From Auricularia sp. M13 (taxonomy: Eukaryota; Basidiomycota; Agaricomycetes; Auriculariales; Auriculariaceae): a stretch of DNA of 64,000 bases. Positions within the stretch are counted from its first letter, which is position 1. Each line of letters begins with the position of its first letter. Of this stretch, positions 41,952-63,504 are shown one piece after another. The stretch lies in NCBI GenBank assembly GCA_037042915.1, contig CM073200.1:3220832-3284831 (forward strand), read 5' to 3'. Under the pieces are notes generated by a model. The model was not told where the DNA came from and searched no databases. It saw only the letters and a list, made by a program, of their open reading frames with translations. The position numbers and the translations under genes were made by a program.

Positions 41952-42004
41952 TGACACGAATTCCAGGTCCGATCTTCCGACCTTGCCTCCTGCCACCGCG
42001 CACG

Positions 42005-42769
42005 ATGAACGCAACGCTCGTTCAACCTATTGAGCAGCTGGAGCGACTCATAATGCAGCTCTTCCACTCTATGGGCCCGCCTACGAACAAGCCGCCCCCG
42101 GCGCCGTCGGCAGAAGCCATCCTCCAGGCCGACATGGAGCTCGCCAGCGCCCTACACCTCGCGCGTGCACACCAGCGCCGCCAACGGCGCATAGAGGCTC
42201 TTGTTGCGGAAATAAGCGGCCTGGACGACTCACTTCGCTCTGTCTGCGCTGCGCTGGGCGAGGGCAAGCGCGAACTCGATGACATTCTGGACGACGCGGA
42301 TGAGCGGCTTGCTGCGATCGACAAGGCCAAAGAAGGTTCGCTCCTGTGACAGTATGTCTATCAGTACGTTGACGGTTGCAGCGGCCATACCGTACCCGGA
42401 GCTGCTCGCGTACGCCCAAACGCTCAGTGCATTCACCTCCGCCCCGCCGGGTGTCTCGCTACCGGACAGCGCTGCACCCCCACCGCCGCTGTTCTTCCCA
42501 CCGTTCCCGAACGAGGAAAAGATGCGCCGCGGAAGGCTGAACGCAGAAGAGCCGCTAGGCGTGCTCGGCGAAACTCATTCTGTTGGTCGGCGTAAGCATC
42601 TGGTCACGCATTCCGTCTGGTGTACCGTGCTGAATGTCTTGCAGCTCCGTCGCCCGAGAAGGCGCTCCCCCCTCAGCCTCATGCGCCTCTTCGGAACGGA
42701 TTTGGTCACGACCATAGACCACAACTGCAAGACTTTGACTTCGATCTTGATCTCAATCCGGACTTGTAA
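42005..42769 (+). CDS. MED4: Mediator complex subunit 4 (left copy)
   Basis: Three exons: MNATLVQPIEQLERLIMQLF through DERLAAIDKAKE (coiled coil), AAIPYPELLAYAQTLSAFTS through PPPLFFPPFPNEEKMRRGRL and GVLGETHSV, then APSPEKALPPQPHAPLRNGF and the acidic end DFDFDLDLNPDL. Introns are 46 and 59 bases; the product is 219 residues. The (I)PYPELLAYAQ.LSAFTSAPP and FPPFPNEEKMRRG motifs identify Med4, a middle-module subunit of the RNA polymerase II Mediator. A second copy with the same 765-base gene length lies at 60180-60944 on the other strand. Only 53 bases upstream of the ATG are shared by both copies. Confidence 0.92.
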
Positions 42770-43090
42770 ACACGCCCGCGATGTCCTATGCAGTGCGCGA
42801 GGACACTCACTTTGCAAATACAGTCGTGCATCGGGAACAATTGGCACCTGCCGAATACCAGGTCTTCCGATAGACACTCTGACTGCCATATGTGCGAGAT
42901 AACCACGCCAGCAAGTCGCAGCCGGTTTTTCCCGCAGTGTCGTCGTGATTGCTTTAAGGACATGACCAGCGGAGCATTCTTTGCACACCGTGCCCAGTAC
43001 GACAACGGGGCGGCAGCCTCCGTCTCCGGGCTGCGTTGTACAGTGTCATCAAACATCCCCAACGAATACGATTCATTGCATGTCTCTAGC

Positions 43091-44581
43091 CTATTCACTC
43101 GCCACATTGACTTCGACACATACTGGAGGAGCATTCTCAACACTATCAGCTAGATCTGGACGGTCGCCCTCCTGTCCAACTGGTGGAAATACGATTCGCA
43201 CGCCGTCGTCTTCAAACTGGATGGTGCTCAGTTGAAATCACATGAGGGTCGATGAACAATACCCACCACCATGACACCGGGTTGCTTTACTCCTTCCTTC
43301 AACTCGGCATGAAGACTAAGCACGTGAGAGGGAATCTCGGAGCGGATGGCTAGTAAGGCCTGCAGCGCTTGCTCGGCGGTCGGACGCAGCGCCGGATCTT
43401 CCGAGCTCATCTCTTCCATGAGCGGTGAAAGTGATGGCATATGCAGGTCAACAAGTTCCCAGATATTGGTGAATGGCTGGCCGGTTCTCATTCAACCTCA
43501 ACATCGACTCAGGGTGACTTCACGTACTTCGTCCTCTGTCAGGTAATCAATAAAAGTTCTTCCGAGTTGGTAGACCTAGATCATGTGAATCAGTATTCTT
43601 CCTGGGCCCGCGCAACATCTCACATCAACGCTGAAGGGGTTGAAAGGTGTGTCCTCTAGTTGCTCCGGCGCCAGAGTTGCTGCGACATCCCCTGTAGCCA
43701 GACACGAAGACAGCTCCATCTCCTTCGGGAACTGCTTGGATTGCCCAAAGTCGACATAGGCATAGCGCGCGTTGAACAGAGAGCGGAAAGGGCCTGGGTC
43801 CCATTTGAAGCGGGACGGTCCTTCGAAGTTCATGACGATATTCCACATGTAGACATCCTGGTCATGGAGTAAGTTGGGTGAAAAGACGGGAATAGTCGCG
43901 TACCAAATGCGCTATGCGATGCTTGTGGAAGAAAGCCAATCCCTGAAAGGCGATGAGTATTTGTTCGGAATGCACAGGACGAGAAGTGAGTATAACCTCT
44001 AGGCATGCCTCGAAGTGATCTAGCACGTCTCCCAAGGTCCAAAATGGCACCACAGAGTCTCTCCATTTGGGCATCACGACAAAAGCTGTCGTATCGACTT
44101 CGATCACGTCGAGGATAGGGATGGTGTGGTCGGCAGGGTCAGGAGCCAACAGCCTCACATTCCGCAAATATTTCACGATAGCGTACTCGTCACTGCTGAC
44201 GATCATGGCTTTTATCGCAACTGGGCGTCCCTGTATGTCATTGGCAACGCGTACAAGTGGCTATACTCTTGTCAGTAGCGTACACTACGCACGTTGAGCG
44301 CGTACATGGCTTGTGGAGGTAGACGGTGGGCGCATTATCGGAAAGGCAACGAAGCTTTCGTTTGGTTTTGGAAAAAATGGGTCTGCAGCGGGTGGGAGGT
44401 GGAAGCCGCGAGGAGTTTCGTCTCGGTCAATGCCAAGGTCCGCCCATGTGACCGTATATCCGCACGTCGCCAGCAGGGGTTCAAAATGTTGCCATTGCAG
44501 GCGCCATTCGTCGGGCAAGTCGTTCGTCCTCAAAGCGTGCCATTCGTAGGGTGGAGGCGGCCAGTGTAGTGGTTGATTCAT
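43091..44581 (-). CDS. Fungal kinase-like protein, copy A (in left arm)
   Basis: Start MNQPLHWPPPPYEWHALRTN. The product has an N-terminal Trp/Pro-rich module (residues 1-95) and then a compact kinase-like domain: PVAIKAM (ATP lysine), EYAIVKYLRNVRLLAPDP, AFVVMPKW hinge, HRIAHLDVYMWNI (catalytic loop H-L-D....N), YVDFGQS (DFG) and LAPEQLE. The canonical HRD Arg is replaced by Leu and the loop Lys by Met, but Lys, Asp, Asn and DFG remain, so activity is possible. After DVYQLGRTFIDYLTEDE the C-lobe continues PFTNIWELVDLHMPSLSPLM. A last intron joins PGVMV to FEDDGVRIVFPPVGQEGDRP. Convergent with Med4. Function unknown. Confidence 0.8.
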
Positions 44582-44611
44582 TGAGTAAAGAGCAGATAAA
44601 CGAACCCAAAC

Positions 44612-45569
44612 ACCTTCGCGGGAGCAAATTAGGATCGTTGATGGCTGACTTTTGAGTCTTACAGTACGCTCGCTAGCTTTACCCGCTCTTGCCAGGTGTT
44701 TCGCTGTTCGATAGCAGCTCTGAGCCGCTCTTCTACCTTTCCTCTCTAACCGAGGATAAGAGGATAAGATGTTGGCATGCCGCAAAAGGTTGATGAAACG
44801 AGTCACTGGACATGCTCGGCAGCGTTACTTGAACGCCGTAAAATGATGTTTATGGTCACATGTTTGGATTCACAACGCGGGACACTGCATCACCGCAGTA
44901 TGAGAAGACTGGGCGACGTCTCAGAGAAGTCGCCCGTCGCGCGACAGCCTCCTAGCCCACTTTGGCACTACCGCCGACAGCTGTGTCTGGCCTTGCTGAA
45001 TTCGAATGGACCAGTGGGAGCGATCCAGCCACACGTAGCGTGGTCACCTCATCCAATGGAGACAGCATCTGCAGCAGCCGCGCTGCGCTTTATTACATTT
45101 ACTATTTACTACATACGGCGACCGTCCGAGCGACTGCATTCATCATGCCTTATATGATAATAACCATGTGCGTGAGAGCCCGATTACTGAGGAGCACAAA
45201 TATGTGGATTTATACAAATCCGGCTGTGTCTGTCCGACCGACTCTGTCAGGATCGGACCGGCATGCTCTGAGATTTGAGCTCGCATCCTAGCGCTCAACG
45301 GCTGTTCGGGATTCCTTTCAAGTTTCTCGTGCTCCAAGCATCGGTAATGACCATCGTGCTTCTACTTCGGTTGCACTAGCATAGTCGAAACGATGCCCAA
45401 GGCTCTGTCCAAGCTCTTTCTCCCCGCACCTTCGAGACTAATATTGCATAGTTACACGAGCTTCTGAAATTCCTGAGGCAGCAAGAACCTTTACATGGGG
45501 CTAGCAGGTGACTACAGCTTGTACAGACATCATTGGCATCACGGACAATGAGCTCAAAAAGCCAATCCT
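44612..45569. other. Intergenic beyond the left arm
   Basis: About 1 kb without a supported gene. The start of the region is the promoter of kinase-like copy A and is unrelated to the sequence upstream of copy C. Confidence 0.4.
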
Positions 45570-45980
45570 TCAACCATATACTGCCTGACCGTTACGGATA
45601 AGCCAGTCATCCGACGCGAAGGGTAATGGAGCTCCGAAATCGTATATGTGACACCGTTGTATGCGGGCCCATTGCGCTATCGTCGTCGATAAGTTACTGC
45701 AGATGGTGAAAGACGCAATCACGACTCGCACCATGGACGAAGAGGATTTTGCTGTGTCGATCATGCCAAGGCAGCGGGGGGCGTTGGCGGTACGGCGGAA
45801 CCAGACGTATTGTCCTACAGCATATTGCGGCATGACATGATTGACGATGACCGCCTGGACGCCCGCGGGCACCCCCCCTCGCCCCCCGGGAGCCCCTCGC
45901 CCCCTGGGAGCCCCTCTCCCCCTGGGAGCTCCTCGGCCTCGACCTGCGCCTCCTCGTTGAGCAGCAGGATTGGCGGCCAT
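45570..45980 (-). CDS. Small RG-rich protein, unknown function
   Basis: Open frame of 136 residues. The first 35 residues hold four repeats of GRGAPR/G (from an 18-base tandem repeat), a type of RG-rich sequence that often binds RNA. The rest, YAVGQYVWFRRTANAPRCLG then STTIAQWARIQRCHIYDFGA and DDWLIRNGQAVYG, has no match I can name. V.QYVWFRR...P..LGMI could be a small beta-barrel fold, but that is speculation. No introns are needed. It could also be a chance frame created by the repeat. Confidence 0.4.
   Translation of the reverse strand: MAANPAAQRGGAGRGRGAPRGRGAPRGRGAPGGRGGVPAGVQAVIVNHVMPQYAVGQYVWFRRTANAPRCLGMIDTAKSSSSMVRVVIASFTICSNLSTTIAQWARIQRCHIYDFGAPLPFASDDWLIRNGQAVYG
45885..45950. repeat. 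18-base tandem repeat
   Basis: About three imperfect units of the form cccctgggagcccctcgc. They encode the GRGAPR repeats of the small RG-rich protein on the minus strand. Confidence 0.7.
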
Positions 45981-47277
45981 GCGTATGACGATGAGTTTGA
46001 GTGGGGAGGCTGGTATGAACGACGAAGGCTGGCAGCCAACGAAGAGGTGCCAGGAGTCAGGCTGCTAAAGTCCAGCCTCAGTCTGAAGTTATAAGGATCC
46101 AAAAACATACTTTGAAAGCAACGTCGAGAAGCCAAGCGTGTGAGACGGAGCGTCAAAGACGGTACCTATCACGGCGCATGAGAACCACGTGTAAGTGCAA
46201 GACGGAGCGTCCTGTCAGTGAACTGACGTTCCGCTCAGTTTTCCCATCCACCGTGTCTGTTTCCGAGTAACTGACGCTGCCAAAGAGTGGCCCATGAGAC
46301 TTCGCTTTGGGAGAACATAATCTGAGGGTCTCATGCGTCGAGCCGAGTAAACAAATTGAAGGGCGATGATAGATGACTCTGAATCTGTCACATCGCCGCC
46401 CACTGCTCAACACAGGCGGCTTGCTCCGAGGCACGCAACTTTTACGCAGTGTGCCTCAGTGTTACGAGCTTAACAGATGACATCATTTCTCCGCCCACCG
46501 ATCTACGATTGCCTCGCAGGCAGGTCGCTGGAATTGAACGCCAGCAATCGCACACATGGGAACGCGTTGGAGGTTGTGAGTCGGGGAGGGTGAAAACCAA
46601 TGTGCCTGCATGTCAGGATCGCGCTCTACCCGGTTATCTGGATCCAGTGAGCGCCGCAGTGAGCTCGCAGCGCTAAACGGCTGGCCACCATTAAACCCAT
46701 TTTGGATTCCTGGGTGATGTTCCCAAGGGCGAAACACCGGGAAGGACACGGCAAGTCTACAGCTTTAGCCGTATGCCGCCCACTCATGATTCTTGATGCC
46801 CTCGAGACGGTAATCGCTTGCGTTGCATAATATTGATGACTCAAACTGTTTATGCGAACTCGTGAGACTCCTGAGACGCAGGCAGATGAGCAACGCATGG
46901 GCACACCCTGAGCCATGCCACGGCCTGCACCAGCGGGGACCTGCTGGTCACCCTTCCTCCAATATGGTTTACCTCATCCCCAGCCGGTATCGCCGCATGA
47001 GGAGCATGAATGAAGGTCACACAATCTATAATTCTGTACAGGAAGAGCCTGGTATGATGTCGATAGCTCAAAGCTCACAAATTTTCAGAAGAGCTGCCAC
47101 AAACTTGCTGAAATCACCAATGTGCCCTGTGACTGCTCAATCTAGTTCAGAGGGAATCGACACACTGCTTGGGAGGGGTGCTGAAGATCGGCACGAATCA
47201 CAGCACCTGAGAATGGTGACTACGTGACCGTTCCTATCATGCCATAGTTTCTGATTGCGATATCTCTCCGGCAGACT
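45981..47277. other. Intergenic, 1.3 kb
   Basis: Several short frames but none with motifs or conserved splice structure. Nothing supported. Confidence 0.4.
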
Positions 47278-48878
47278 TTACACGTTTCCGACGACCTTCT
47301 CCACGCCTGGCGGAAGGGCGTAGCCGCTCTGTTTTCTGACCTCATCGAAAACTTCCATCTCGAGAAGACTCTTCTCCCATCCCCAGAGCTGACTCTGCGT
47401 CTTACCGTCTCTCACACACCGCGCGACTTCGTCGGCCTGGAAGTGCCATCCCCCGCCCTCGAACTTGTTGAACAGCTCCACAGCGTGTTCGACAACCTCG
47501 TCTGCCCCGCCATCATTGTAGTAGCGCACGGAGAACGACGGCGGTTTGTAGATGGGATGCTGCACGGTGATCTGGCCCTTGTCGAAGCGGATGGTGAGAG
47601 GTGGGTCTGCTGCGTGCGCATTGATGCTGTCTGAGAGGATCGCTTGGGCGCCGAGGTTTTGGAAGTCGAGCACAAAGGTGGTGTTGCTGTCCACACCCGT
47701 GAGGTCCGTCTTCACCATAGTTCCCGTTACCTGGAGTGAATGAGATATGAGACGCGAGTGACGGGATACTCGAGCAGCCTGAATAATGACGGACTTTGCT
47801 AGGCTTCGCGGCTTTGTTCTGTGGGCGTTCGTAAAGCGCTATGATCGCCTGCGCGCCGGTATCAGTATTTCATACGATCTCGATCGACGGTTGACGTACC
47901 CAGACGAGCGGGTACGGGCCACTGAATGGACTCAGAATATGCATGGATCATAGAAGCTGAGACTCGGACGTACAGGTCCAACAAAGCTCCTCCGCCGAGT
48001 TGCGGGTCCAAAATGCGATGCGTAAGGGGGATGTCTATGCAATGCAAATGCAGTCAGCCTGACGTCTCGCTCTGCGCAATGGATATACTGTACGCACTAT
48101 GGATATCGAAGTCGCCCGAGAGGTCCGCTTGCCTGACATGCAGCTCGCATTAATGACCCATCGCCGCTGAGAATCCGAGATGCGACTTACAATACCCGAA
48201 CGTCGCCGAGCCTGGGGTCCTCCGCGGCCTTCTTGACTGCGTCCGCAATGGGCAAGAAGCGCGTCCACATTGCCTCCATGAAGAACAGCTTCTTCTCGCG
48301 GGCGATGTCCAGCAGCGCGCTCAGCTCCGCCGCGTTGACCGTCACCGGTTTCTCCACCAGCACGTTCTTTCCCGCGAGGAGAGCGTCGCGCGCATTTTCG
48401 TAGTGGTGGGCGTGTGGAGACCCTATCAGTATGCTGCGTCAGTGGATGGGGAGGGGGAGGAGTGAAGGGGAGACAGACCGATGTAAACGGCGTCTACGTT
48501 CGCGTCGGCGTAGACGCCGTTGTAGCTGCCGTACGCCTTGGCGCCGGAGCCGGAGGCATATGTGTCAATGAACTCCTGAGCCTTCTTTTCGTCGCGCGAG
48601 CCGACTGCGACGAGCTTATGGACAACGTCGGTGACACCACGGCTTTTTGAACCAATCAGGCCTACTCGTAGGAGAAATTTTCGCGAGGATACAGAAGGAA
48701 AGCGTACGTTTGCGGGTCGACGAGGATGTCCTGTGTGATGCGATGAGATAAGATTGGCCGATCGCTTAGATTGCATGGACGCAGAACGAAGGAAGCTCAC
48801 TTTGACGAAGACGCTGCTGATGCGGCCGGTGGCCACGACGCCCCAGCGCAGAACGAACGGTTGTGTAGCAGAGGACAT
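47278..48878 (-). CDS. Gfo/Idh/MocA-family oxidoreductase
   Basis: NAD(P)-dependent sugar or diol dehydrogenase, closest in pattern to dihydrodiol dehydrogenase/D-xylose 1-dehydrogenase. MSSATQPFVLRWGVVATGRI begins a Rossmann fold (GVVATGRIS). Then GVTDVVHKLVAVGSRDEKKA, YNGVYADANVDAVYIG, ENARDALLAGKNVLVEKPVT (EKP motif, Lys essential in the family), REKKLFFMEAMWTRFLP and the C-terminal domain with HRILDPQLGGGALLDLYVR and VTGTMVKTDLTGVDSNTTF. Ends KSLLEMEVFDEVRKQSGYAL then PPGVEKVVGNV. Introns are short; the exon near PHAHHYENARD follows one. Complete by appearance. The substrate is not determinable. Confidence 0.88.
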
Positions 48879-49562
48879 GATGGTTATACACCAAGGCACA
48901 GACGGCAATGAGCAGGGTGATGGAGAAAGCTCGGTTCGGCTCGCGGTCCGGGTACCGCGCGCAGTTGCCGTCTCGTCCTCAGTTGGAAGATTCAGAGAGG
49001 AACGACACAGCGACTCAGCGCATACCTCAGTGTCTCTACATTCAATAATTGGCACGGTTTTCATTTCGTACTGGTACTGTGGTCAACCTTAGTAGACCGC
49101 ACGACAACGTTGCGGTCAGATACCGCACACACCAACCGGTGTGCGCCTCCAGCAACGTTATCGCTACACAACAGCATAGACGAGGCGCACGATCACGTCG
49201 AGCCATTTTTAGATAGCATCTCGGCGTTGCTGGTGAGCTTCGCCGAAAAAAAATATGTGCGCAGCAGATTCCTGCTGTCTATACATGAGCAGCGCCGGGA
49301 ACGCTCGTTAGTCGTGATGGAATAGGTGAAAGAATGGCATGCACACCAGACTCAGATCTAGAGCGTAGACAGTCTTGACGAGGTGTAGTATCGTGTTTCG
49401 AGGCCTAGAAACTCGGACTCGACCAGGCATTTGGTTAGTTCCCTCGTTCCATGGTCGTAGTTCTGCTAGTGACAGGTTGAGATAGGGATGTCCGTCATGA
49501 ACCACAGCCAGTGGCGCAGGAGCAGGTACCCGCTGCTCAGTGGCAATCGTCAAGTTCGATCT
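48879..49562. other. Intergenic, 0.7 kb
   Basis: Between the Gfo/Idh/MocA start and the SET gene 3' end. Some of this may hold the last exons of the SET gene, for example a frame giving NLSLAELRPW near 49308-49553. Confidence 0.4.
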
Positions 49563-50826
49563 TTACGACCAGAGGCAGACGTTTTGTTTTATGCCGCCGG
49601 TCCTTTCGAGGACCGTGCGTTCTTCGAGCACGTATTGAAGGGCAAGACGGACGCTGCGTTCATATGGCGGTGTGGCCTACGAAGAATTAGACATGGCGAT
49701 GGAATAGCTGTAGTGACCAACATACCTCTAATAGCACCGCGAGCTGCGCGACGCTGTAGTCCATCGCGCACGACATGCCACTGCCATTTCCAGGTAAAAC
49801 AAAGCCGTAGCGCGCCAGCAGCTCGGCGTTGGAGAGGCCCGCGGGATCGTATGTATTATATATCTCGTCGCCGGCACGTATCGGCGCGGTGGTCACCATA
49901 TCGCACGTATCCTCGCCCGGCGCGTCCTCCTGCACGTCGGTGCGTGGGTGTGGACACTCGGACAGACTTCCACAGCTTGGACAGACATCGAAGTCCGACT
50001 GCAGCATGATGAGATGGGTTGCACAGCTAGAAAACGAAATTCGTACGTACTTGCATCTGGACGGTGTACGCGTTGGTGTGGTTGAACGCGTCCGCGATGG
50101 GCACCATCGACAGGCCGTGGTAGGCATCGACGACGAATGCGCGGGAAGACACGAGCGCGTATGCGTGAAGGTACTCGCTCTCGTCTGCCTGCTCCAGCCC
50201 GTCAAGATTTTGTACCACGTTCCGGAAATACGAACGCGCTGTCGCCTGCGAATGCGTAAGGAATTGAATCACGCGAAGTCTCAAAAGAGGTGGCAGACCA
50301 AAATGTTGCTCTCGCGGATGACGGAGAGCGCGGGCGTTCCCTCGAGCCAGCGTAAAGCCTCTGCATCCTCGACTGCGTCCCAGAGATGACCAATGCTGAG
50401 TGCTTCTGGCCCTGGCAGTGACTGCAAGTAACCAAAAAAGCGCGAGAGAAGTCCTTTTTGCCTTGTATGAGCTTTTATATCAGATTAGAAATGCTCACAA
50501 CACGAGTGCACTCACATTTCGACCAGGAGTGCAGCTGCGAGCGTGAACGCATCTGGCGAGGTATCGTTGCGCAATTCTGGGACAGAACTCGTCTTTGCAG
50601 AGAGTATAGCGCGCTTGGGTATAGTCACAACTACATAGACCGCCTGGTTAGAGAGTTGAAACGGACACAGGTGGCCAAACGCACGCGTGACTTCTGCTGG
50701 GATGTCGTTGCGGGCACGGACATATATCGAGCCAGTGTGGTCCTGGAGGACCTCCGCGCGTGGGTCTATGCGTATTCCGTTGTTCAAGCACCAGGAGAGC
50801 AAAGTGGGCACCGTCGTCCGTACCAT
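49563..50826 (-). CDS. SET-domain protein (lysine methyltransferase family)
   Basis: Residues include MVRTTVPTLLSWCLNNGIRI, VTIPKRAILSAKTSSVPELR, FFGYLQSLPGPEALSIGHLW, FVVDAYHGLSMVPIADAFNH (the NH substrate/cofactor motif), PIRAGDEIYNTYDPAGLSNA and ELLARYGFVLPGN (the terminal SET motif). This layout fits the RKM/SETD3/SETD6-type SET group, which methylate non-histone proteins such as ribosomal proteins. A GT..AG intron then joins AVLLE to ATPPYERSVRLALQYVLEER, and the frame ends NVCLWS with a stop at 49563. A further exon downstream is possible, so the C-terminus is uncertain. It starts 97 bases from the divergent APN2 gene. Confidence 0.8.
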
Positions 50827-50923
50827 CGAGCAGCACGCATGAGTGGCGCAAAGACAAGAGCGACGCGGTCGCCGGACTCAGCCGAACGCGTTTTGGCTTC
50901 TGCTTTCCTCGCCGCGCTCTGCA
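50827..50923. promoter_or_regulatory. Compact bidirectional promoter (SET gene / APN2)
   Basis: Only 97 bases separate the two divergent start codons. Whatever drives the genes must be shared or lie inside one of them. No clear TATA box is seen. Confidence 0.5.
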
Positions 50924-53119
50924 ATGCGCATTGTGACATGGAATATTGTGCGTTAATAACCTAAGCTCAGGATTAACGGCTCTAAATCAATTATTTTTCA
51001 TCAGAATGGAGTGCGCACGTTACCCAAGTATCATCCGTACGCTCGTCCTTACATGTGGCTTAAGAGCGCGTATTTACGACTGGTACTTTCAGATGGAACA
51101 CGCTCGGGTCCTGGAAAGCAATTTTGGACGAAATAGGCGCGTCCATTATATGTTTCCAAGGTCCGTTCCTCTGTATCAAGTCGCCGAGCATTCATCTCAT
51201 CGCCGAAACAGAAATGAAGACGACCCGCCAGCAACTGGACCGGGCCACAGCGCTCCCCGACGGCTACGACTCGTTCTTCTCATTCCCGCAGCAGAAAGGC
51301 GGCTACAGCGGCGTCGCAGTCTACACCAACCGCGCCGACGCAGTCCCGCTCAAGGCAGAGGAGGGCCTCTCCGCCCGTCTGCAACCCAGCAAGCCGCCGC
51401 TGAGTGCAGAGGAACGCATCTCGCGGACGTACCCCGACATTGACGATTTTGCCTCGGACCTCTGTCCCAACGACGACGGGAGCGTGCCGCAGGATGTGAT
51501 CGAGCTCGACGGCGAAGGCCGTGCCCTGGTGCTCGACTTTGGGCTCTTCGTGCTCGTCAACCTTTATTGCCCAGCGGAGACAAGCGACTCCCGTGTACCG
51601 TTCAAGGTACTCTAGTCCTAGCATCTCTGTTCACCGAAATGAACGGCAATTTCACAGGCGAACTTCCACCGTCTCCTCAGCGAGCGCTTGCGCATCCTGC
51701 GCCACGAAGGCCGCGAGATAATTGTCCTAGGCGACATTAACATTTGCTCGACAGCGCTCGACCACTGCGACTTTACGCTGCCCAGCACACACGCAACGTT
51801 CTACGAGCGCCCCATCCGCGTCTGGATGCGCGACCTGCTCGAGCCCGTGGGCCCTTTCGTCGATATCGTACGGCGCTTCCACCCCGGCCGCAAGGGCATG
51901 TACACCTGTCCGTCCATCGTCCCCGTTGCCGCTCCCTTCCCCTCATTGACCGCGCTGCAGGCTGGAACACCAAGATCAACGCGCGAGAGTCGAACTACGG
52001 CACGCGCATAGATTACATCCTCTGCACACGAGGACTTGTGCCCTGGATGAAAGGGGGTGACATTCAGCCTTTAGTCAAAGGCTCGGACCACTGCCCCGTC
52101 TACGTGGACCTCCACGATGAGATTACTGGCGAGGATGGCAACATCGTCAAGCTGCGCGACGCCATGCAGCAAACTCCCGAGCCTCGCCCACCGCCGAGGT
52201 TGGCGGCATGCTACTGGGATGCGTTTTCCAAACGGCAAACGTTACTCGGAAACTTCTTCGGCAAGGGCGCTGCTGCGAAGAAAGCTGCTGCTGCTGTGGT
52301 CACCACAACAGAGAGCGCTGCCGTTATCGATGTGGATGAGCTCCCTCCGTCGCAGACATCATCATCCTCGCCTTCGCAGCTATCGACGCCGTTACCATCG
52401 TCACAGCAATCTACCGTCACGGAGACCGACAGCGACGTCGTCGAGGTCGATGCACCCTCCACCTCTTCGTATTCACGGCCTCAACTACAGCCCAAACGGA
52501 CCAGCTCGCTGTCGTCCACGACGCCCAAGGCCAAGGCTAAACCCAAGCCCACCACAAAGAAATCCGGCCAAATGAAACTCTCCTCTTTCCTCAAGCAGGC
52601 ACCAGCTGCCTCGTCTTCCGCATCCTCCGCCTCGCCCGCGCCACACGACTCAGAGCAGATCGACGCCGACTACGAGTTCGCGCGGCTCCTCGCCGCATCC
52701 GAAGAGGCCTCGGCGCCCATCCCACGCACCTCGTCCACGGAATCCAAGAGCGCATGGTCTTCGCTCCTCGCGCCCGTGAAGCCGCCCTGCTGCGAGGTGC
52801 ACAACCAGCCCACGATCCGGCGCACCACGACGAAGCCCGGGCCGAACAAGGGCAAGGTGTTCTACATCTGCTCAATGTACGTCCCCACTGCTCCGTCTAT
52901 ATTGACGTTCTCACTCAACTCTCCGTGTGCTCTCGTAGGCCGCTGGGTCCGGGGTACGACGCGGGGCGGGGTAAGCGGCTGCGCGAGGAGGTCGACACGC
53001 GGTATAAATGCGACTACTTCAAGTGGGAGAGCGACGTCAAGCGCGAAGCACTGCGCAACGACGCGGCCAACGTCAACGGCTCAGCTGCGAAAGCAAAACG
53101 GCCGCGGTTGGATAGTTGA
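50924..53119 (+). CDS. APN2: AP endonuclease 2 (APN2)
   Basis: Base-excision-repair nuclease of the exonuclease III family. Exon 1 MRIVTWNI joins NGVRTLPKYHP, then WNTLGSWKAILDEIGASIIC and FQ|EMKTTRQQLDRA, reading correctly across three introns. Catalytic motifs: GDINICSTALDHCD, RESNYGTRIDYILCTRG and GSDHCPVYVDL. The long C-terminal region has a PCNA-binding PIP box (GQMKLSSFLKQA) and a zinc-finger GRF (CCEVHNQPTIRR, GPNKGKVFYICS, then YKCDYFKWES), the standard APN2 tail. Ends AKRPRLDS, a likely nuclear signal. The Glu of FQEMK is the metal-binding residue. Confidence 0.93.
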
Positions 53120-53407
53120 TAAGATATCGATGCTTCAATGTGAGGCTTCCCTGCTTTCGATGCTTGCTTTGGTGTGCTGTTTGTATCCATAGGTGTACTA
53201 TTATCGTCGCTACCCCGTACAATTTCAATCGCATCGTCCAATGATCGTCGCATCTGGGGAATCGCGATTTTGACAGAAATCTAGGAAGGTGTATTCTATT
53301 GCCTGTGGTATGATCTATCTACTATCGATACATGTCTAACACTCTCATTGCACTTGCACGAAACGATGAAGAGATACAGTATGTGGGTGCCGCCGTTAAA
53401 TATGTAT

Positions 53408-55176
53408 TCAAGCCTCCGTGGTCGACACGAGAACTCCATCGAGCTCCAGTTCGATGTCCCTCCAGACAACAATCTCGCGGCCGTGAATATGCTCCAAGAA
53501 GTCGCAAATAAGCTCCAAGGACACCACGGTGGCGACATGAGGACCCGGGAGGTCGTCATTAGCAGAATGGCACTCTTTGAGCGGTCGCGTCGTCGTCAGA
53601 CACAGTCGAGAGAGTCCGAGGCAGCACGACCGGCCAGAGGCTCGGTACTCGAGCAGACGTGTTCGTCCTTCCAGCAGCTGCGCGCCGCCGTGCCATATGC
53701 AAAGTGTCTCGAGCCCGCGTGGGAAACAGCCAGTACCGAAGAGCAGGTCGAGCTCGTGCGCAAGCATCCACTCGCCGAGTGTCAGACTCTTCAGCGTCCA
53801 CATAAACATCTTACAGAACAAAAACGAATCCGATGTGATGTACTGGCCCGCAGCACCATGAAACGTCTGCGCCATATCGCTGTAGTCGACGAACTGCAGA
53901 CAGCCGTCGAGCAGGGCGCACGCGCGGAGGCTGTCCGTGAACTTGACGCAGTGGCGCACAGTCGCGCGGGATGCGTTGCGGATGCGCAGGTCGCGGATGT
54001 GCTCGGCCTGGAGCACCCGGAGCGTCGTGATCATGCGGTCGGGCGTCCACAGGGCGGAGTGGCCCTCGTCGATCAAGAGATAGCTGAGCAAGGGCCGGTG
54101 GGAATTGCGAGCAGGAGAGCACGGTCTGAGAAGCGGAGGGTGCGAGAAGGGGGTGTTGATGCTGAGGGACGTGACTCGAGGCGCGACATCGCGTAACATG
54201 TCGAGGGAGGGGAAAGCAACGTCATTGACAGCGATGTTGTCCTCCCCAAGAAACGTGAGGCAGCTTAGCTGGCTTGCCGCCAGTCGCCATGAATCGGTGA
54301 GCGAGGAAAGAGCATGGAACGTTGAGAAGGAATCGAGCCGCGAGAGGATGTGGCGCCTCGACTCAAGGGAGTGGTAGCTAGCAGTTGATTCTAGCGTGCT
54401 CAAGGTCTGCGCGCAGGAGAGATTTGGGGGCCCCGAAGGCGCCTGGACGGACAAGAGCGGTTCCGGAGGAAATATCAGATGCATCGGGTCCAGAGGCGTT
54501 AAGGGCGACGGAGAATCTGGCTCAGTCGCGAAAGACGCGTCATCGATAGTGGAAAGGGGAAAGGGGTCACGGGGATCATGGTCGTGTTTTGCTGTCGATA
54601 TGGCGTTGAGACGTGGCCTCAAGGTTGATTGCGCTGAATAATGGACCCGTGGAGAAGGGAAATGGAGAGCTGCGGGCTGGTCGGTGGAGAATGAGGCGAG
54701 CTGGTGTGAATCATGGCGGAGGCCAGCCGAAAGTGTCTGAACGTCATCCAATGCCGCCGCCAGTTGCGTAGTTCTAGAGAGTCATTCAGCTACCACTACC
54801 GCACGGAGACGTAGACTTACTGGACAGGAGGATCCACATCATTTGTGCGGGTCTCATGAGGAAGGTACTGCTCGAGATCCTGAAGTCGTGCAGGTCGTCC
54901 TTCGATGTATGTAGATTGTCTTGCTGTAGCCTGTGGTAGAGGCCAATGTGATAAGAAGGCTGGCAGTACGCCTTCCGTGTTGAGAATGGTGTCGAACTTC
55001 TGAGTGTACGCGGAGACTTGTTCTGTGACGAGTTCCCTCATTCTGCGCTTGGTATAAGTAGGGCCGAGCAGCCGTGAACGAGTTGTAACTTACGCGGAGT
55101 CGCTGTGCCCAAGCTCCTTGACGAGGGGCTCGATGTGCGAAGAGAGTGTAACGCGGGGTGGAGGGGAGGAAGTCAT
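53408..55176 (-). CDS. Protein of unknown function
   Basis: Three exons: MTSSPPPRVTLSSHIEPLVK then ELGHSDSA|MRELVTEQVSAYTQKFDTIL, then DPPVQ|TTQLAAALDDVQTLSAG (both junctions GT..AG and in frame). The product is about 550 residues. The N-terminal 90 residues look helical; the middle is Ser/Pro-rich; the C-terminal half has leucine-rich segments (LRDVAPRVTSLSINTP, LLSYLLIDEGHSALW, RVLQAEHIRDLRIRNASRAT, LETLCIWHGGAQLLEG, VVSLELICDFLEHIHG) like those of fungal F-box/LRR proteins, but no F-box is seen. I cannot name the family. Divergent from kinase-like copy B. Confidence 0.6.
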
Positions 55177-55544
55177 TGGGTTTAGGAGTTTATGGATCGA
55201 ACATTCATACCGCGCTCGATTGAGGACGTGTTTCCGCCGCTGCCCGTGTTCACGAGCGGCAAGCATTGTGTTCCCGAAAGTTGCGTCTGAGGAAGACTAC
55301 ATCACTCCCGAGGCTGTCAGCCGTCCACCACCAGCTTGGAAGGACGATATTCTTTGGAGAACACGATACCAACGGAGCTGGCAGGAATTTGGATCTATGG
55401 TTGCTCTGCGTCAAGCTTCAGGCACAGCACGGGTGCAGCAAGCAGCGAGCAAAAGGAACATTGGAGCGTCACAGCGGCGGCTGGCAAGGGGTGAGTTGTT
55501 TAGATTTGTTTGTCTAGCTCTTCGTCTTCAAGTTGCGCTGCCCA

Positions 55545-57037
55545 ATGAATCAACCTCTACACTGGCCGCCTCCTCCTTACGAATGGCACATTCTGAGGGC
55601 GAGCAACTCGTCCGAAGAATGGCGCCTGCAATGGCAGCACTATGAGCCCTTGCTTGCTTCTTGCGGATATACTGTCACATGGGCCGACTTCAGTATTCTC
55701 CCAGACGAGTGCCCTCGCGGCTTCCTCCTCCCGCCCGCCGCAGATCCCTTTTTTCCCAGTCCAGATGAATCTTTCGTCGCATTTCCCATGGCACGCCCGT
55801 TATTCACGTCCACCAACCATGTACGTCGTGACCAATGCGTGCATTCAAAGCCGCTGATGACAACGTAGCCGCTCGTACACGTCGCCAACGACGCAAAAGA
55901 GCGTCCAGTCGCGATTAAAGCTATGCTAAAGAGTAGTGATGAGTATGCCATAATGAAATACCTGAGGAATTTGAGGCTGGTGGCTCCTGACCCTGCCGAC
56001 CACACCATTCCCATACTCGACACGATCGAAGTCGATGAGACAGCCTTCGTCGTAATGCCAAAATGGGGGGAATCAGTAGTCTGCTTCTGGACTCTGGTGG
56101 ACGTTCTGGATCACTTTGAGGAATGCTTGCAGGTAGCCCTCCCGCTCAATGTGTTTTGACGCATACTGATCTATTACAGGGACTGGTCTTCATGCATGAG
56201 CATCGCATCGCGCATTTGGTGCGTATCCTTTTTAGACTTACCGCTATATTCATCCGTGAATAGGATATTTATATGTGGAACATCCTCATGAATTACGATG
56301 GACCGCCGAGGTTCAAGTTCGCACCAGGTCCCTTCCGCTCTCTGTTCAACGCCCGTTATGCCTTCATCGACTTTGGACAGTCTAAGCAGTTCCCGAGGGA
56401 CATGGATCTATCTCTGTGCATGGCTACAAGCAACGTCGCGGGAGTCCACGCTCCGGAGCAATCCGCGGAGGCGATCCCTTTCAACCCCTTCAACGCCGAC
56501 GTGAGCTTTCAACGAGTTAATGCCAAACGCTAAGCGGATATCTAGGTGTATCAACTCGGCAGAGCATTCATCGACTATCTGAAAGAAGATGAGGTCCGCC
56601 GAATGCCGCAGAGCCTGTTTGGAGTCGCTGATACTAATTCGTCCAGGAATTCACGAACATCTCAGAACTTGTGAATTTGCACATACCCGAGCTTTCACGG
56701 CTCATGGAAGATATGACCTCACAAGCCCCTGAACTCCGTCCGTCTGCCGAACATGCATTGCAGACTCTGCGTGCCGTCCGGTCACATATCTCTTCCGACG
56801 TTCTCTGTCACCACGTCGAACCGAAAGAGGGGGTAGATCAGAACGGGGACTACGAGGTGTGTGTTGATCCCTACTCGATGATGAATGCTCCTGATCCCCC
56901 TCCAGTTCGAAGATCAGTCTATCCGAATCGTAGTCCCACGAAACGAGGGCCATGATGCTCGTAATTGCCTGCCTACTCCTGGCGATGGAGTGCCTTCGCG
57001 AACTCAAAGTGAGTCCATAGGTGTTAATAATGTGTAA
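55545..57037 (+). CDS. Fungal kinase-like protein, copy B (diverged paralogue)
   Basis: Same architecture as copies A and C: MNQPLHWPPPPYEWHILRAS, PVAIKAMLKSSDEYAIMKYL, AFVVMPKWGESV, HRIAHL|DIYMWNILMNYDGP, FIDFGQSKQFPRD, HAPEQSAEA, VYQLGRAFIDYLKEDE, then EFTNISELVNLHIPELSRLM. Introns occur at the same places. The last intron joins DYE to FEDQSIRIVVPRNEGHDARN, and the protein ends GVNNV. Overall identity to A and C is perhaps 65-70 percent by eye. It is outside the inverted duplication and in the same direction as copy C, 0.5 kb upstream of the transposon. Catalytic Lys, Asp, Asn and DFG remain. Confidence 0.78.
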
Positions 57038-57517
57038 GAACGATACCCAGCAGCAGGAGCTTCTTGTTTGTCGAAAGCTCCCGAGTCAAATATATTCGCC
57101 GTGACTTGACGAGTTTTTTTCTCCGTCAAAGCCCCTGAATTTTCGAAGCGCGTTATGTGACGATGACATTCCCCGGGGCGGGTGGAATCTTCAACTTCAA
57201 GTTGTTCTGCAACCGGAAAACTGAACCGCTTGGGAGGTTGGGATTCTCTAGAGAAAGGTGACGGAGCTGTCCTGCGATCAGAATCCGTGGGTGCTGGATG
57301 CCACGCAGCTTCAAGAACAGCAGACCGGGCAGCACACGGTGTGTTCTTGCAAAGGCGGCACCGCCGGTAGGAATAGCATCGGTAGGTAAGAAGTAACAAA
57401 TTTCTGTCACATTCGATGTTCCGAAAAGTCATGCGTTTACCTATTCCCGGAAGAGTTGGACGACTCGAGATCAGGGCCGCCGTCGGTTCCGATTTAGTCA
57501 TTTACGGCAGATGCAAT
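57038..57517. other. Intergenic between copies B and the right arm
   Basis: About 480 bases. A minus-strand frame reading LKLRGIQHPRILIAGQLRHL and LPSGSVFRLQNNLKL is open, but I recognise no family. No gene is supported. Confidence 0.35.
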
Positions 57518-57542
57518 GTTTGGGTTCGTTTGTCTGCTCTTT

Positions 57543-58342
57543 TATGGCGGGCGGATGTGGACAAAAGTGCGTCAAACAAGCTGACATCTCGTTTATCCTT
57601 CACATCTATTCCCGCATCATTCCTGCATGATTCCCGCATGATTCCCGCATCTAAGGTTACTTGATATCCTTTATTTCTTCCTTAATCCTGCAGCCATCCC
57701 GCATCCACATCCCGCACCGATCCCGCAGTTGTCCTGTAGTACTTGTACTGATTTTGCACTGCTCTGTTCCCTGTAGATGTCATACTCCAGATTGATAGGG
57801 CCACTGTTCATGCCGGGCCATGCAGGTGTATCCATTAGAGAAAAACCCACAGAAGACCAGTCTCCTCGGAGACTTTAAGCATTGCACATCTGGTGGCAGT
57901 GCCATTCGTGCCAGTTTTCAGACAGTTCCGTCTTTTTCTGGCATGGTTGGCACTGCCACCATCCTTGATCTCTCTCTGCCATGCGGGAAGGCTGCAGGAG
58001 AAGTGTTTGCTCAACTTGAGCCATGTCTTGCACCTTGTGGGAACAATGCAGGAAGATCACAGCGATCATACAGGATGCATGCGGGATTGTGGCAGTGATC
58101 ATCCCGCATGATCTGGTAGAATCCCGCACACTTCCTGCATACTTCCTGCATGATTCCTGCAGTCTTCCCGCACATATACTGCATGATTACCGCATACAAT
58201 CAGAAAAGGTGCAGGAAGTATGCAGGAATCATGCGGGAATAGTGCGGAATCATGAGGGAATTATGCGGGAATTATGAGGGAATTATGCGGGAACGCGAAG
58301 GGGAATGGAATTGCTACCTTTTGTCCACATCCGCCCGCCATA
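57543..58342. mobile_element. Non-autonomous DNA transposon (MITE-like), 800 bp
   Basis: Ends TATGGCGGGCGGATGTGG and its reverse complement, continuing through ACAAAAG, form terminal inverted repeats of about 25 bases. Flanking CTCTTT at 57537-57542 and 58343-58348 is a 6-bp target duplication; the left arm shows the empty site with a single CTCTTT. Subterminal regions are packed with short repeats of the ATTCCCGCAT / ATTCCTGCAT type, mainly direct near the left end (57600-57655) and reversed as ATGCGGGAAT near the right end (58225-58290), as expected of transposase-binding arrays. No transposase frame is present. It sits 11 bases upstream of the copy C ATG. Confidence 0.88.
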
Positions 58343-58353
58343 CTCTTTGCTCA

Positions 58354-59858
58354 ATGAAGCAACCACTACACTGGCCGCCGCCGCCCTACGAATGGCCCGC
58401 TTTGAGGATGAACGACTCACCCGATGCTCCCGAAAAATGGCGCCTGCAATGGCAACATTACGAGCCCCTACTGGCCTCGTGCGGATATACGGTCACATGG
58501 GCGGACTTTGAGTTTGGCATCCACCCAGATCTAGACGAATGTCCCCGCGGCTTCCACCTCCCACCCGCTGCAGACCCATTTTTTCCAAAACCAAACGAAA
58601 GCTTTGTTGCCTTCCCGATAACGCGCCCGTCGTCTACTTCCATAAGCCATGTACGCGCTCAACGTGCGTAGTGTATGCTACTGACAAGAGTCTAGCCACT
58701 TGTGCGCGTTGCCAACGACGTACAGGAACGTCCAGTCGCGATAAAAGCCATGCTCATTAGCAGTGACGAGTATGCTATCTTGAAATATTTGCGGAATCTG
58801 AGGCTGGTGGCTCCCGACCCTGCCGACCACACCATCCCTATCCTCGACGTGATCGAAGTCGATACGACAGCTTTCGTCGTTATGCCCAAATGGAGCGACT
58901 CTGTGGTGCCATTCTGGACGCTGGGAGACGTGCTAGATCACTTCGAGGCATGCCTAGAGGTACTGCCTGTTTCCCGGCTGGCGCAGAAAATACTCATCGC
59001 CTCCAGGGATTAGTTTTCTACCATGAGCATCGCATAGCGCATTTGGTACGCGACTATCCCCGTCTCTTCACCCAACTTACACCATGGCCAGGATATCTAC
59101 ATGTGGAATATCGTGATGAATTTCGAAGGACATACCCGCTTCAAATGGGACCCAGGCCCTTTCCGCTCCCTGTTCAACGCGCGCTATGCCTATGTCGACT
59201 TTGGGCAATCCAAGCAGTTCCCGAAGGAGATGGAGCTGTCTTCGTGTCTGGCTGCAGGCAATGTCGCAGCAACTCTGGCGCCGGAGCAACTAGAGGACAC
59301 AGCTTTCAACCCCTTCAGCGTTGATGTGAGATATTGCGCGGGCCCAGGAAGAATACTGATTCACATGATCTAGGTCTACCAACTCGGAAGAACTTTTATT
59401 GATTACCTGACAGAGGACGAAGTACGTGAAATCACCCTGAGTCGATGTTGAGGTTGAATGAGAACCGGCCAGCCATTCACCAATATCTGGGAACTTGTTG
59501 ACCTGCATATGCCATCACTTTCACCGCTCATGGAAGAGATGAGCTCGGAAGACCCTGCGCTGCGTCCGACCGCCGAGCAAGCGCTGCAGGCCTTACTAGC
59601 CATCCGCTCCGAGACTCCCTCTCACGTGCTTAGTCTTCATGCCGAGTTGAAGGAAGGAGTAAAGCAACCCGGTATCATGGTGGTGGGTATTGTTCATCGA
59701 CCATCATGTGATTTCAACTGAGCACCATCCAGTTTGAAGACGGCGGCGTGCGAATCGTATTTCCACCAGTTGGACAGGAGGGCGACCGTCCAGATCAAGC
59801 TGATAGTGTTGAGAATGCTCTTCCAGTATGTGTCGAAGACAAGGTGACGAGTGAATAG
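58354..59858 (+). CDS. Fungal kinase-like protein, copy C (in right arm)
   Basis: Starts MKQPLHWPPPPYEWPALRMN, 11 bases after the transposon. Same order as copy A: VPLVRVANDVQERPVAIKAM, EYAILKYLRNLRLVAPDPAD, AFVVMPKWSDSVVPFWTLGD, HRIAHL|DIYMWNIVMNFEGH, YVDFGQSKQFPKEMEL, LAPEQLE, PFTNIWELVDLHMPSLSPLM and the last exon FEDGGVRIVFPPVGQEG. The 3' half is nearly identical to copy A; the 5' half, with a small indel (DAPEKW; FGIHPDLDECPRG), resembles copy B more (LRNLRLVAP, QHYEPLLASCGYTVTW). No disruption is evident. The transposon occupies the position of the 5' leader, so promoter use may differ from copy A. Confidence 0.78.
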
Positions 59859-60179
59859 GCTAGAGCCGTGCAATGAATCGTATTCGTTGGGGATATTTGA
59901 CGACACTGTACAACGCAGCCCGGAGACGGAGGCAGCCGCCCCGTTGTCGTACTGGGCATGGTGTGCAAAGAATGCTCCGCTGGTCATGTCCTTAAAGCAG
60001 TCACGACGACACTGCGGGAAAAACCGGCTGCGACTTGCTGGCGTGGTTATCTCGCACATATGGCAGTCAGAGTGTCTATCGGAAGACCTGGTATTCGGCA
60101 GGTGCCAATTGTTCCCGATGCACGACTGTATTTGCAAAGTGAGTGTCCTCGCGCACTGCATAGGACATCGCGGGCGTGT

Positions 60180-60944
60180 TTACAAGTCCGGATTGAGATC
60201 AAGATCGAAGTCAAAGTCTTGCAGTTGTGGTCTATGGTCGTGACCAAATCCGTTCCGAAGAGGCGCATGAGGCTGAGGGGGGAGCGCCTTCTCGGGCGAC
60301 GGAGCTGCAAGACATTCAGCACGGTACACCAGACGGAATGCGTGACCAGATGCTTACGCCGACCAACAGAATGAGTCTCGCCGAGCACCCCTAGCGGCTC
60401 TTCTGCGTTCAGCCTTCCGCGGCGCATCTTTTCCTCGTTCGGGAACGGTGGGAAGAACAGCGGCGGTGGGGGTGCAGCGCTGTCCGGTAGCGAGACACCC
60501 GGCGGTGCGGAGGTGAATGCGCTCAGCGTTTGGGCGTACGCGAGCAGCTCCGGGTACGGTATGGCCGCTGCTACCGTCAACATACTGATAGACATACTGT
60601 CACAGGAGCGAACCTTCTTTGGCCTTGTCGATCGCAGCAAGCCGCTCATCCGCGTCGTCCAGAATGTCATCGAGTTCGCGCTTGCCCTCGCCCAGCGCAG
60701 CGCAGACAGAGCGAAGTGAGTCGTCCAGGCCGCTGATTTCCGCAACAAGAGCCTCGATGCGCCTTTGGCGGCGCTGATGTGCACGCGCGAGGTGCAGGGC
60801 GCTGGCGAGCTCCATGTCGGCCTGGAGGATGGCTTCTGCCGACGGCGCCGGGGGCGGCTTGTTCGTAGGCGGGCCCATAGAGTGGAAGAGCTGCATTATG
60901 AGTCGCTCCAGCTGCTCAATAGGTTGAACGAGTGTTGCGTTCAT
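60180..60944 (-). CDS. MED4: Mediator complex subunit 4 (right copy)
   Basis: Second complete Med4 gene, equal in length to the left copy (765 bases with introns), same exons and ending DFDFDLDLNPDL. Only a few base differences are seen, for example within the first intron (acgttga against catactg/atgttga side). An upstream ATG at 60968 would add MPPAPPRT because of a 2-base indel relative to the left copy. Shared sequence extends only 56 bases upstream of the ATG, so each copy has its own promoter. Head-to-head with the first alpha/beta hydrolase. Confidence 0.9.
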
Positions 60945-61175
60945 CGTGCGCGGTGGCGCAGGAGGCAAGGTCGGAAGATCGGACCTGGAATTCGTGTCAG
61001 CTTTGGTCTTACGAGTGACACGGCTTCCAGGTCAGCGCCATGTTTCCATTCGCTGGTCTGCGAAAGACGCTTCAGTCTGCCCGTTATTGCGAGAATCAGC
61101 TATCTGGCAGAAATCGTGGGAACATCGGATGATTGCGAGATGTCCACTCTTCTTGACTTCTGCTCGCCGTAGCCA

Positions 61176-62105
61176 ATGTCTGGCGGGCCAGATTCAGCGG
61201 CAGCGGCAACCGCGGCAGGAACAGCTGTACAGACGCTGGTGCTTGCAGACGGACGCACGCTCTCCTACGCGGTCTACGGCGACTCTTCGAGCTCAGCACC
61301 CACTGTCTTCTACTTTCACGGCTATCCAGGCTCACATGCGGAGGCAGCTCCGTACCACCGTCCCGCACTCGCTCGCAACCTGCGCATTGTCTCGCTCGAC
61401 CGGCCAGGGATGGGCCACTCGACCTTCCAGCGCGCTCGGCGCCTCGCTGACTGGCCGGCGGACGTGCTCGCGGTGGCCGACCATCTGTCTGTGCAGCGTT
61501 TCGCGCTTATCGGTATGTCGGGTGGTGCGCCTTACGCTTTAGCGTGCGCGCACAGCCATGGCATCTCGAACGAACGACTACGAGGCGTTGCGCTCGTCTC
61601 GGGCTGGTATCCACTGGCCATCCCGTCCGCTCAGCGCGCGACGCTCTGGTTTGCACGCTGGTGTACCCCCCTTGTGCGCTGCGTGCTCTATTGGCTCTTT
61701 GCGCGCGCCGCTACTCGCTCCGACCCCGCGCAGCTCCTCGCGCTCATGAACCGCGAGATTGCGCGAACACCGAGGCCGGACCAGGTCGCATATGACGCGA
61801 ACCGCGACGCGCTATTAGAGAGCATGCGCGGCGCCTTCCGCCAGGGTGCCGCCGGCCTTGCCTGGGACGCGCGTCTGTACGGCTCTCGATGGCATTTTGG
61901 GCTTGAGGACGTCAAGATGGACACCGGTCGGCTCGTCATGTGGCATGGTGCTTTGGATAACGCCTGCTCGCTCGGCATGGCACAGCAAGCTGCTGCGCTA
62001 TTGCAGGGCGCTGAGCTGCGCGTCTCGGCTGACGACGGCCACTTGTCTGTCGCTATGCATAGGGCCGGCGAAATCCTCGACACCTTAAAAGATCTGCTTT
62101 CTTGA
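61176..62105 (+). CDS. Alpha/beta hydrolase (tandem copy 1)
   Basis: Single exon, 309 residues. Family features: LADGRTLSYAVYGDSSSSAP, VFYFHGYPGSHAEAAPYHRP (oxyanion HG), IVSLDRPGMGHSTFQ, nucleophile elbow ALIGMSGGAPYALACA (Ser), acid Asp in MWHGALDNACSL and His in SADDGHLSV. The catalytic triad is intact. No signal peptide, so cytosolic. Substrate unknown; it may act on small esters or epoxides. Its promoter abuts the right Med4 gene. Paralogous to the gene at 62.5 kb (similar motifs in the same order, perhaps 50 percent identity). Confidence 0.88.
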   Translation: MSGGPDSAAAATAAGTAVQTLVLADGRTLSYAVYGDSSSSAPTVFYFHGYPGSHAEAAPYHRPALARNLRIVSLDRPGMGHSTFQRARRLADWPADVLAVADHLSVQRFALIGMSGGAPYALACAHSHGISNERLRGVALVSGWYPLAIPSAQRATLWFARWCTPLVRCVLYWLFARAATRSDPAQLLALMNREIARTPRPDQVAYDANRDALLESMRGAFRQGAAGLAWDARLYGSRWHFGLEDVKMDTGRLVMWHGALDNACSLGMAQQAAALLQGAELRVSADDGHLSVAMHRAGEILDTLKDLLS

Positions 62106-62523
62106 GCTGGCGGCTGCGAAAATTCGCTGTGCTCGTAAAACGGCCTCCTGGGGGATTAGATTTTTCACTATCGGGCAGCTTGCCGGCTTGGTGTTCAATG
62201 CAAATCAATACAGAGGTTCCTCGCTTGCGCGGGCTCCTGCTCCCTTGTGCACAGTAAAATTACGCGGGCAGACATGACTTTCCCGGGCATTCTTGGCCTT
62301 CCCGCGAATGGTTGCCTGGACACGTTACGCTGAGCCGCCGACGCGACACCTGGCGGCGCGTTCTTTGCATACGATTATTACGAACAACGTTGCTGCGATT
62401 CTGGCGGCGTCGTCCAACCACCGCCCGTCAAGCTGCGGCTTGTGCGAGCAACTGCGGCCAGCTTTGAGACTGCTTACGTGGGCAGGAGGATCATGATCAG
62501 TATCAAGTCAAATTTGTGCTGCG
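62106..62523. other. Intergenic between the two hydrolases
   Basis: About 420 bases, no gene supported. Promoter of the second hydrolase. Confidence 0.4.
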
Positions 62524-63504
62524 ATGCAGATCAATCTGGAATCGCATACAAATATGGACGCGTTGCAATGGAGCAACATCATTGAACAACAGCTCGCCTC
62601 CCTCGCCATGACATCTCAGCCAGACACCGACGATGCACGTGTATTCCAGCTCCCCGATGGCCGCACGCTCTCGTACGCCATCTACGGCTCGCCGTCACCC
62701 ACGGCGCCGACGATATTCTACCTACACGGCTTCCCGTCGTCGCACGCCGAGGGGCGCATGTTCCATCGTGCAGGGCTCGCGCGTGGCATTCGCATTATCG
62801 CACCCGACCGGCCAGGCACGGGGCAGTCGACGCACCAACCCGACCGCCGCCTGGTGGACTGGCCCGCCGACCTCCTTTCGCTCGCAGACCATGTGGCAGC
62901 ACAGACGTTTGCGATCATCGGCGTCTCCGGCGGCGCGCCGTACACGCTGGCCTGCGCCCGCGTCCTGCCCCACGAGCGCCTGCGCGGTGCCGCGCTCGTC
63001 TGCGGCCTGTACCCTACCGCGCTCGGCCTAGCGGGCATGGCGATGGAGGGGCGCGGGCTGCTGTGGATTGCGCCGCTGCCCGGCGCGACGTGGCTGCTGA
63101 GCCGCCTCTTCAACTCCGTGCTCACCGACACCGCGCAGCTCGAATCCGCGATGAAGCGCCGGCCAGCGCCGGACCGCGCAGTCTTCGAGAGCAACGAGGA
63201 CAACTTCAGGGACAACATGATCGCTGGCTCGCTTGGTGCCACGCCTGACGGCGCAGCACTGGAGGCGCATATCCTCGGCAGCGCGTGGGGTTTCGAGCTC
63301 GAGGACATTAGTCTTGGCCACAAGCGCATCCTGATGTGGCATGGCGCGCTCGACGAAAACGTCCCGGTTGCCATGGCCCACAAAGCGGCGGCCCTGTTGG
63401 GCGACGCTGCTGAGCTGCATGTCTCGGACGACGAGGCGCACGCGTCGCTTATCGTGCACAAGGCCGACGAAGTGTTGGAGGTGTTGCAGAAGTTCCTTGA
63501 TTGA
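62524..63504 (+). CDS. Alpha/beta hydrolase (tandem copy 2)
   Basis: Single exon, 326 residues. Features: LPDGRTLSYAIYGSPSPTAP, IFYLHGFPSSHAEGRMFHRA, IIAPDRPGTGQSTHQPDRRL, nucleophile elbow AIIGVSGGAPYTLACA, acid Asp in MWHGALDENVPV and His in SDDEAHASLIVH. N-terminal extension of about 30 residues (MQINLESHTNMDALQWSNII) relative to copy 1; an ATG further in (near MTSQPDTDD) is possible. Cytosolic, triad intact. Tandem duplication with copy 1 is evident from the shared motif order. Confidence 0.88.
   Translation: MQINLESHTNMDALQWSNIIEQQLASLAMTSQPDTDDARVFQLPDGRTLSYAIYGSPSPTAPTIFYLHGFPSSHAEGRMFHRAGLARGIRIIAPDRPGTGQSTHQPDRRLVDWPADLLSLADHVAAQTFAIIGVSGGAPYTLACARVLPHERLRGAALVCGLYPTALGLAGMAMEGRGLLWIAPLPGATWLLSRLFNSVLTDTAQLESAMKRRPAPDRAVFESNEDNFRDNMIAGSLGATPDGAALEAHILGSAWGFELEDISLGHKRILMWHGALDENVPVAMAHKAAALLGDAAELHVSDDEAHASLIVHKADEVLEVLQKFLD

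Follow-up and report, generated by a model that had tools for sequence, protein, structure and literature searches.

A Med4 gene and a kinase-like gene occur together in two inverted copies on one contig of Auricularia sp. M13, and this Med4-kinase block is a real inverted segmental duplication of mosaic age. Duplications of this kind are known, and the second Med4 gene is the unusual part of the one described here. The sequence-only reading of the same DNA had described two intact inverted Med4 and kinase-like blocks; the presence of two copies held up, and the block proved not to be uniform, having a recent Med4 side, an old 5′ kinase side and an extra tandem kinase gene. That the arms have two ages is new beyond that reading.

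Structure of the inverted repeat

The window, which is the whole stretch of DNA analysed, spans 64,000 nucleotides (C8:3220832-3284831) of an assembly that comprises 14 contigs and 52.1 Mb. Five gene models (two Med4 copies and the kinase-like genes kinA, kinB and kinC) were built by hand with GT..AG introns, related genes being modelled by analogy. All five are open from start to stop, and their introns are 45-54 bp long (Table 1). The inverted match found by BLASTN runs from 41952-44592 against 60999-58343 over 2664 columns at 94.5% identity, and arm homology resumes, past an insertion that interrupts the right arm, with a 26-bp piece of 96% identity. The left arm measures 2661 bp and the right arm 3483 bp, or 2677 bp after subtraction of the 800-bp element together with one copy of its 6-bp target duplication, and the arms are separated by 12,904 bp; these values agree with the 2.66 and 2.68 kb and the spacing of about 13 kb that had been estimated from the sequence. 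The two blocks are borne out by this identity over 2.66 kb and by Med4 and kinase-like genes without internal stops in both arms. Across the entire assembly, the left arm has three matches, namely to its own position, to the right arm (94%) and to a further stretch that covers a kinase gene (70%).

Beyond the arm edges, the outer and inner flanks compared with each other show no similarity above chance. Between the two outer flanks the global match is weak (p ~0.07 for 40 bp and for 80 bp) and the local p values are 0.22 and 0.73, and a search of the flanks for kinase or Med4 relics returned a best E of 0.94, aside from the end of kinA itself. Within the interval, a 2.7-kb piece (50500-53200) matches only itself in the assembly. 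The APN2 label given earlier to one interval gene has sub-cut-off support: its frame hits the Pfam families Zn_ribbon_GRF (E 7.3e-5) and Exo_endo_phos (E 0.002) with scores under the curated cut-offs. The same holds for oxidoreductase-like frames, whose hits to GFO_IDH_MocA have E values of 0.011 and 0.019. The SET label of another interval gene is not confirmed, as the three frames scanned at that gene contain no match to a SET domain.

Other repeated sequences occur in the window. Tandem direct duplicates of a Major Facilitator Superfamily transporter gene lie at 22020-23977 and 26543-28517 (80% identity), and a 46-bp inverted repeat, 89% alike, lies at 13995-14040 and 14613-14658, its halves ~570 bp apart. 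Beside the right arm, two adjacent alpha/beta-hydrolase frames in the same orientation (61173-62105 and 62497-63504) share a 305-bp stretch that is 69% alike.

Table 1. Features of the inverted repeat and its interval (positions in the window)
Feature	Position	Strand	Description
Left arm, inverted repeat	41952..44612	+	2661 bp
Med4, left copy	42005..42769	+	3 exons, 221 aa; hand model, Pfam PF10018
kinC, left-arm kinase-like gene	43091..44581	-	7 exons, 398 aa; hand model, Pfam Pkinase
Recent part of left arm	41952..43777	.	silent + non-coding divergence 26/1024 vs right arm
Old part of left arm	43778..44581	.	silent + non-coding divergence 54/357 (39/310 without intron 2)
Interval between arms	44613..57516	.	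12,904 bp; oxidoreductase-like and APN2-like frames, SET gene by the label of the sequence-only reading only, kinA
kinA, older tandem paralog of kinB	55545..57037	+	7 exons, 401 aa; Pfam Pkinase
Right arm, inverted repeat	57517..60999	-	3483 bp with insertion
Non-autonomous TIR transposon	57543..58342	.	800 bp, 25-bp perfect inverted ends, 6-bp target duplication CTCTTT
kinB, right-arm kinase-like gene	58354..59858	+	7 exons, 405 aa; hand model, Pfam Pkinase
Med4, right copy	60180..60944	-	3 exons, 221 aa; protein identical to left copy

The two Med4 genes

Med4 is normally a single-copy gene, and one would not expect a core Mediator subunit to have a second intact copy. The protein matches Pfam PF10018 with 76.3 bits (cut-off 26.9; E=3.2e-21) over residues 36-172 of 221. 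A search of the 52-Mb assembly with the Med4 profile, to E 10, gave four exon matches in two places only, both within the window; the control for this search gave a signal, under the cut-off, in one genome of 14. Med7 and Med31 were each found in one place in the assembly, with two exon matches each. In the portions of the literature on Med4 or Mediator duplication that were available, including part of PMC4770211, no report of a duplicated Med4 was found.

The left and right Med4 proteins are identical at 221/221 residues, and their genes differ at 11 codons, every one of them silently (NG86 analysis). Without constraint, the probability that all 11 differences would be silent is 2.5e-7 to 1.0e-6, depending on transition bias, and about 14-16 replacements would be expected if one copy were free of constraint. 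The differences are therefore unlikely to stem from random sequencing error or from the decay of one copy. The likeness of the copies may reflect either selection on both of them or an exchange between the arms that keeps them alike, and both Med4 genes are probably in use.

Divergence along the arms

Alignment of the arms, a check proposed in the sequence-only reading, showed that the overall identity of 94.5% is unevenly distributed along their length, with a sharp step in silent divergence. A change-point scan used third codon positions together with intron and intergenic sites; the 31 bp just ahead of the kinase, which misalign across the insertion, were left out of the alignment. The scan located a single step at position 43777 of the left arm (L43777), in exon 4 of the kinase, with differences at 26/1024 sites (2.5%) on the Med4 side and 54/357 (15.1%) on the 5′ side of the kinase, and none of 2000 shuffles gave a step as strong. 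Third codon positions alone place the step at the same site (14/402 vs 33/219; 0/2000 shuffles), and non-coding sites alone place it at L43615, the nearest non-coding site before exon 4 (11/614 vs 22/146; 0/2000 shuffles). Intron 2 of the kinase aligns poorly, with 15/47 mismatches, and its exclusion leaves 26/1024 against 39/310, an old side of ~13%, with 0/5000 shuffles as strong and a support interval of 43675-43825. No second step was found inside the recent or the old part, where 464/1000 and 491/1000 shuffles, respectively, were equally strong.

These results rule out a single uniform duplication. Protein selection is likewise ruled out as the cause of the step, because the introns and the intergenic stretch follow it. 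For codon positions 1 and 2 the strongest step falls elsewhere, at L43101, close to where the kinase gene ends (1/451 vs 39/791; 1/2000 shuffles), and constraint on Med4 would give such a step. The Med4-side edge of the repeat is clean: its outermost 53 sites show 0 mismatches and one 2-bp gap, which has a chance of 1.7e-4 at the old rate, a value that is partly selected since the edge is set by the start of the match.

The three kinase genes

The Pkinase profile PF00069 (cut-off 31.7 bits) scores 38.7 bits for kinB (E 9.5e-10), 34.0 bits for kinA and 44.7 bits for kinC (E 1.4e-11), and comparison with solved structures gives weak kinase matches with a best E of 0.0024. By eye, all three proteins contain VAIK, HLD(I/V)YMWN and DFG, which we take to be the VAIK lysine, the HxD..N catalytic loop and the DFG motif of protein kinases; no glycine-rich loop is evident by eye in any of the three. 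The third gene, kinA, is absent from the sequence-only reading and stands in tandem on the right side, with 70% DNA identity. A search with kinB gave 48 matches in the assembly, those outside the window having at most 52% protein identity. More distant kinase relatives are grouped at C9:1109535-1112729 and C10:1257553-1321647.

kinB and kinC are identical at 358/398 residues (dN 0.047, dS 0.141, NG86), and kinA differs from each of them by a dN of ~0.22 and a dS of ~1.4 (NG86). Window dS between kinB and kinC is 0.17-0.35 in windows starting at codons 0-180 and 0-0.06 from codon 210. By eye, the DNA upstream of kinA, kinB and kinC is alike for ~30 bp, and the kinase-side arm homology fades ~30 bp ahead of the start codon, roughly where the upstream likeness to kinA ends. 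As an outgroup for the direction of copying between the arms, kinA gives mixed counts: at sites where kinB and kinC differ, it agrees with kinB at 7 and kinC at 11 in exons 4-7, and with kinB at 26 and kinC at 19 in exons 1-3. In exon 1 (44306-44581 in kinC, 58354-58650 in kinB and 55545-55820 in kinA) kinA sides with kinC, 15 to 10, and in exons 2-3 with kinB, 16 to 4. This switching among exons hints at further exchange among the three kinase genes.

A transposon in the right arm

The insertion in the right arm is, judging from its structure, a non-autonomous TIR DNA transposon. It has perfect 25-bp inverted ends, a CTCTTT duplication and a longest frame of 103 aa, and the left arm carries a single CTCTTT, corresponding to the empty site. 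The element ends 11 bp ahead of the kinB start codon and now separates kinB from its former upstream DNA. Two more full-length copies, on C5 and C7, are 84-85% identical. Duplications of 6 bp are also present at the C5 copy and at a longer relative (C8:1646349); the C7 copy is without one, and on its right side it abuts what reads as the end of another element. A pattern made from the element end (at most 3 mismatches) has 22 matches in the genome, and the reversed pattern has 0.

History of the duplication

The history that we favour, with about even confidence, is that recent copying or conversion, anchored in an old inverted kinase pair, created or renewed the second Med4. The inverted paralogs kinB and kinC would have come to stand ~13 kb apart, kinA being a tandem relative older still than this pair. 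DNA synthesis would then have been primed within the kinase homology, at about L43675-43825, and the copied tract would take in one kinase's 3′ half, the intergenic stretch common to both arms and the entire Med4 gene to ~53 bp ahead of its start codon. Joining of the new end without homology would have left the second Med4 with different upstream DNA. The divergence step, the extension of the recent tract to the Med4-side edge, the lack of similarity past the edges and the silent-only Med4 differences are consistent with copying from the kinase; the global p of ~0.07 between the outer flanks counts against it, and a simple two-step history does not explain why kinA is closer to kinC in exon 1 and to kinB in exons 2-3. 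A repair type of copying, and a direction for it, are proposed parts of this history.

The same divergence step is accounted for by an old inverted duplication of the entire Med4-kinase block that was later partly homogenised by gene conversion, with the 5′ half of the kinase near the transposon escaping. We consider this unlikely, though credible: a transposon ending so close to kinB might hinder pairing nearby, and the Saccharomyces flip/flop repeat provides a fungal precedent in the available part of PMC9731477, but the recent tract would then have to extend all the way out to where homology ends, and no decayed remnant is seen beyond that point. An improbable alternative is a recent duplication of the entire block, after which one kinase had its 5′ half replaced by sequence from a divergent allele or paralog absent from the assembly. 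The flip in kinA agreement between exon 1 and exons 2-3 (15 to 10 for kinC, then 16 to 4 for kinB) fits such a replacement, and dikaryotic fungi can carry divergent alleles; however, the assembly holds no fitting donor, given the low identity of the kinB matches outside the window, and the replaced tract would also need to reach the kinase-side edge.

An assembly artefact is very improbable, whether through the merging of dikaryon haplotypes that differ in the end at which Med4 sits or through a misjoined copy. A silent divergence of 2.5% is within the allelic range of some fungi, and silent-only differences in Med4 would fit alleles too. The flanks of the two arms are nonetheless unlike each other, and the 11 silent and 0 replacement differences also speak against an artefact. 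The assembly is unlike two merged genomes, because the 2.7-kb interval stretch, Med7 and Med31 are each present once. Copying anchored in an old kinase pair remains the simplest reading and the one that we prefer.

Relation to known systems

The closest precedent is the flip/flop region of Saccharomyces chromosome XIV, where, according to the available part of PMC9731477, a gene block lies between inverted, nearly identical 4-kb repeats that carry whole genes, among them sporulation genes. The arms of that repeat are homogenised, a mobile element interrupts one arm in three strains, and both orientations of the block occur across strains and species. The Auricularia locus resembles what is described there in having inverted high-identity repeats with whole genes that flank a block, and a mobile element in one arm. 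It differs in that one orientation is known from one assembly, that only ~1.8 kb of the arm looks recent and that the gene carried by the arm encodes a Mediator subunit. With inverted repeats of high identity on both sides of the 12,904-bp interval, flipping of the interval is plausible by analogy.

Recursive ectopic gene conversion in Aspergillus, in which regional paralogs exchange sequence, is tied to gene splitting and loss in the available part of PMC12844118. The likeness to that account lies in fungal paralogs of one region exchanging sequence, and the difference is that all three kinase frames and both Med4 frames are open here. A broader comparison is with ordinary segmental duplication accompanied by interlocus gene conversion, which gives mosaic identity along paired paralogs; unlike such cases, the recent tract here bears a whole extra gene and reaches the edge of homology.

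In a more speculative extension, which we regard as doubtful, the inverted kinase pair would be a landing pad for one-sided-homology copying of the neighbouring Med4, the 13-kb block could switch orientation, and Med4 genes under different promoters would be kept identical by exchange. Among the titles on one-sided-homology gene duplication, no case from fungi was found.

Biological significance

The two-age boundary within one exon is a readable record of a gene pair that was perhaps extended into a longer inverted repeat, and such an extension may be a step towards rearrangements of the flip type. With two Med4 genes that encode an identical protein behind different upstream DNA, the locus makes Med4 dosage and promoter divergence testable.
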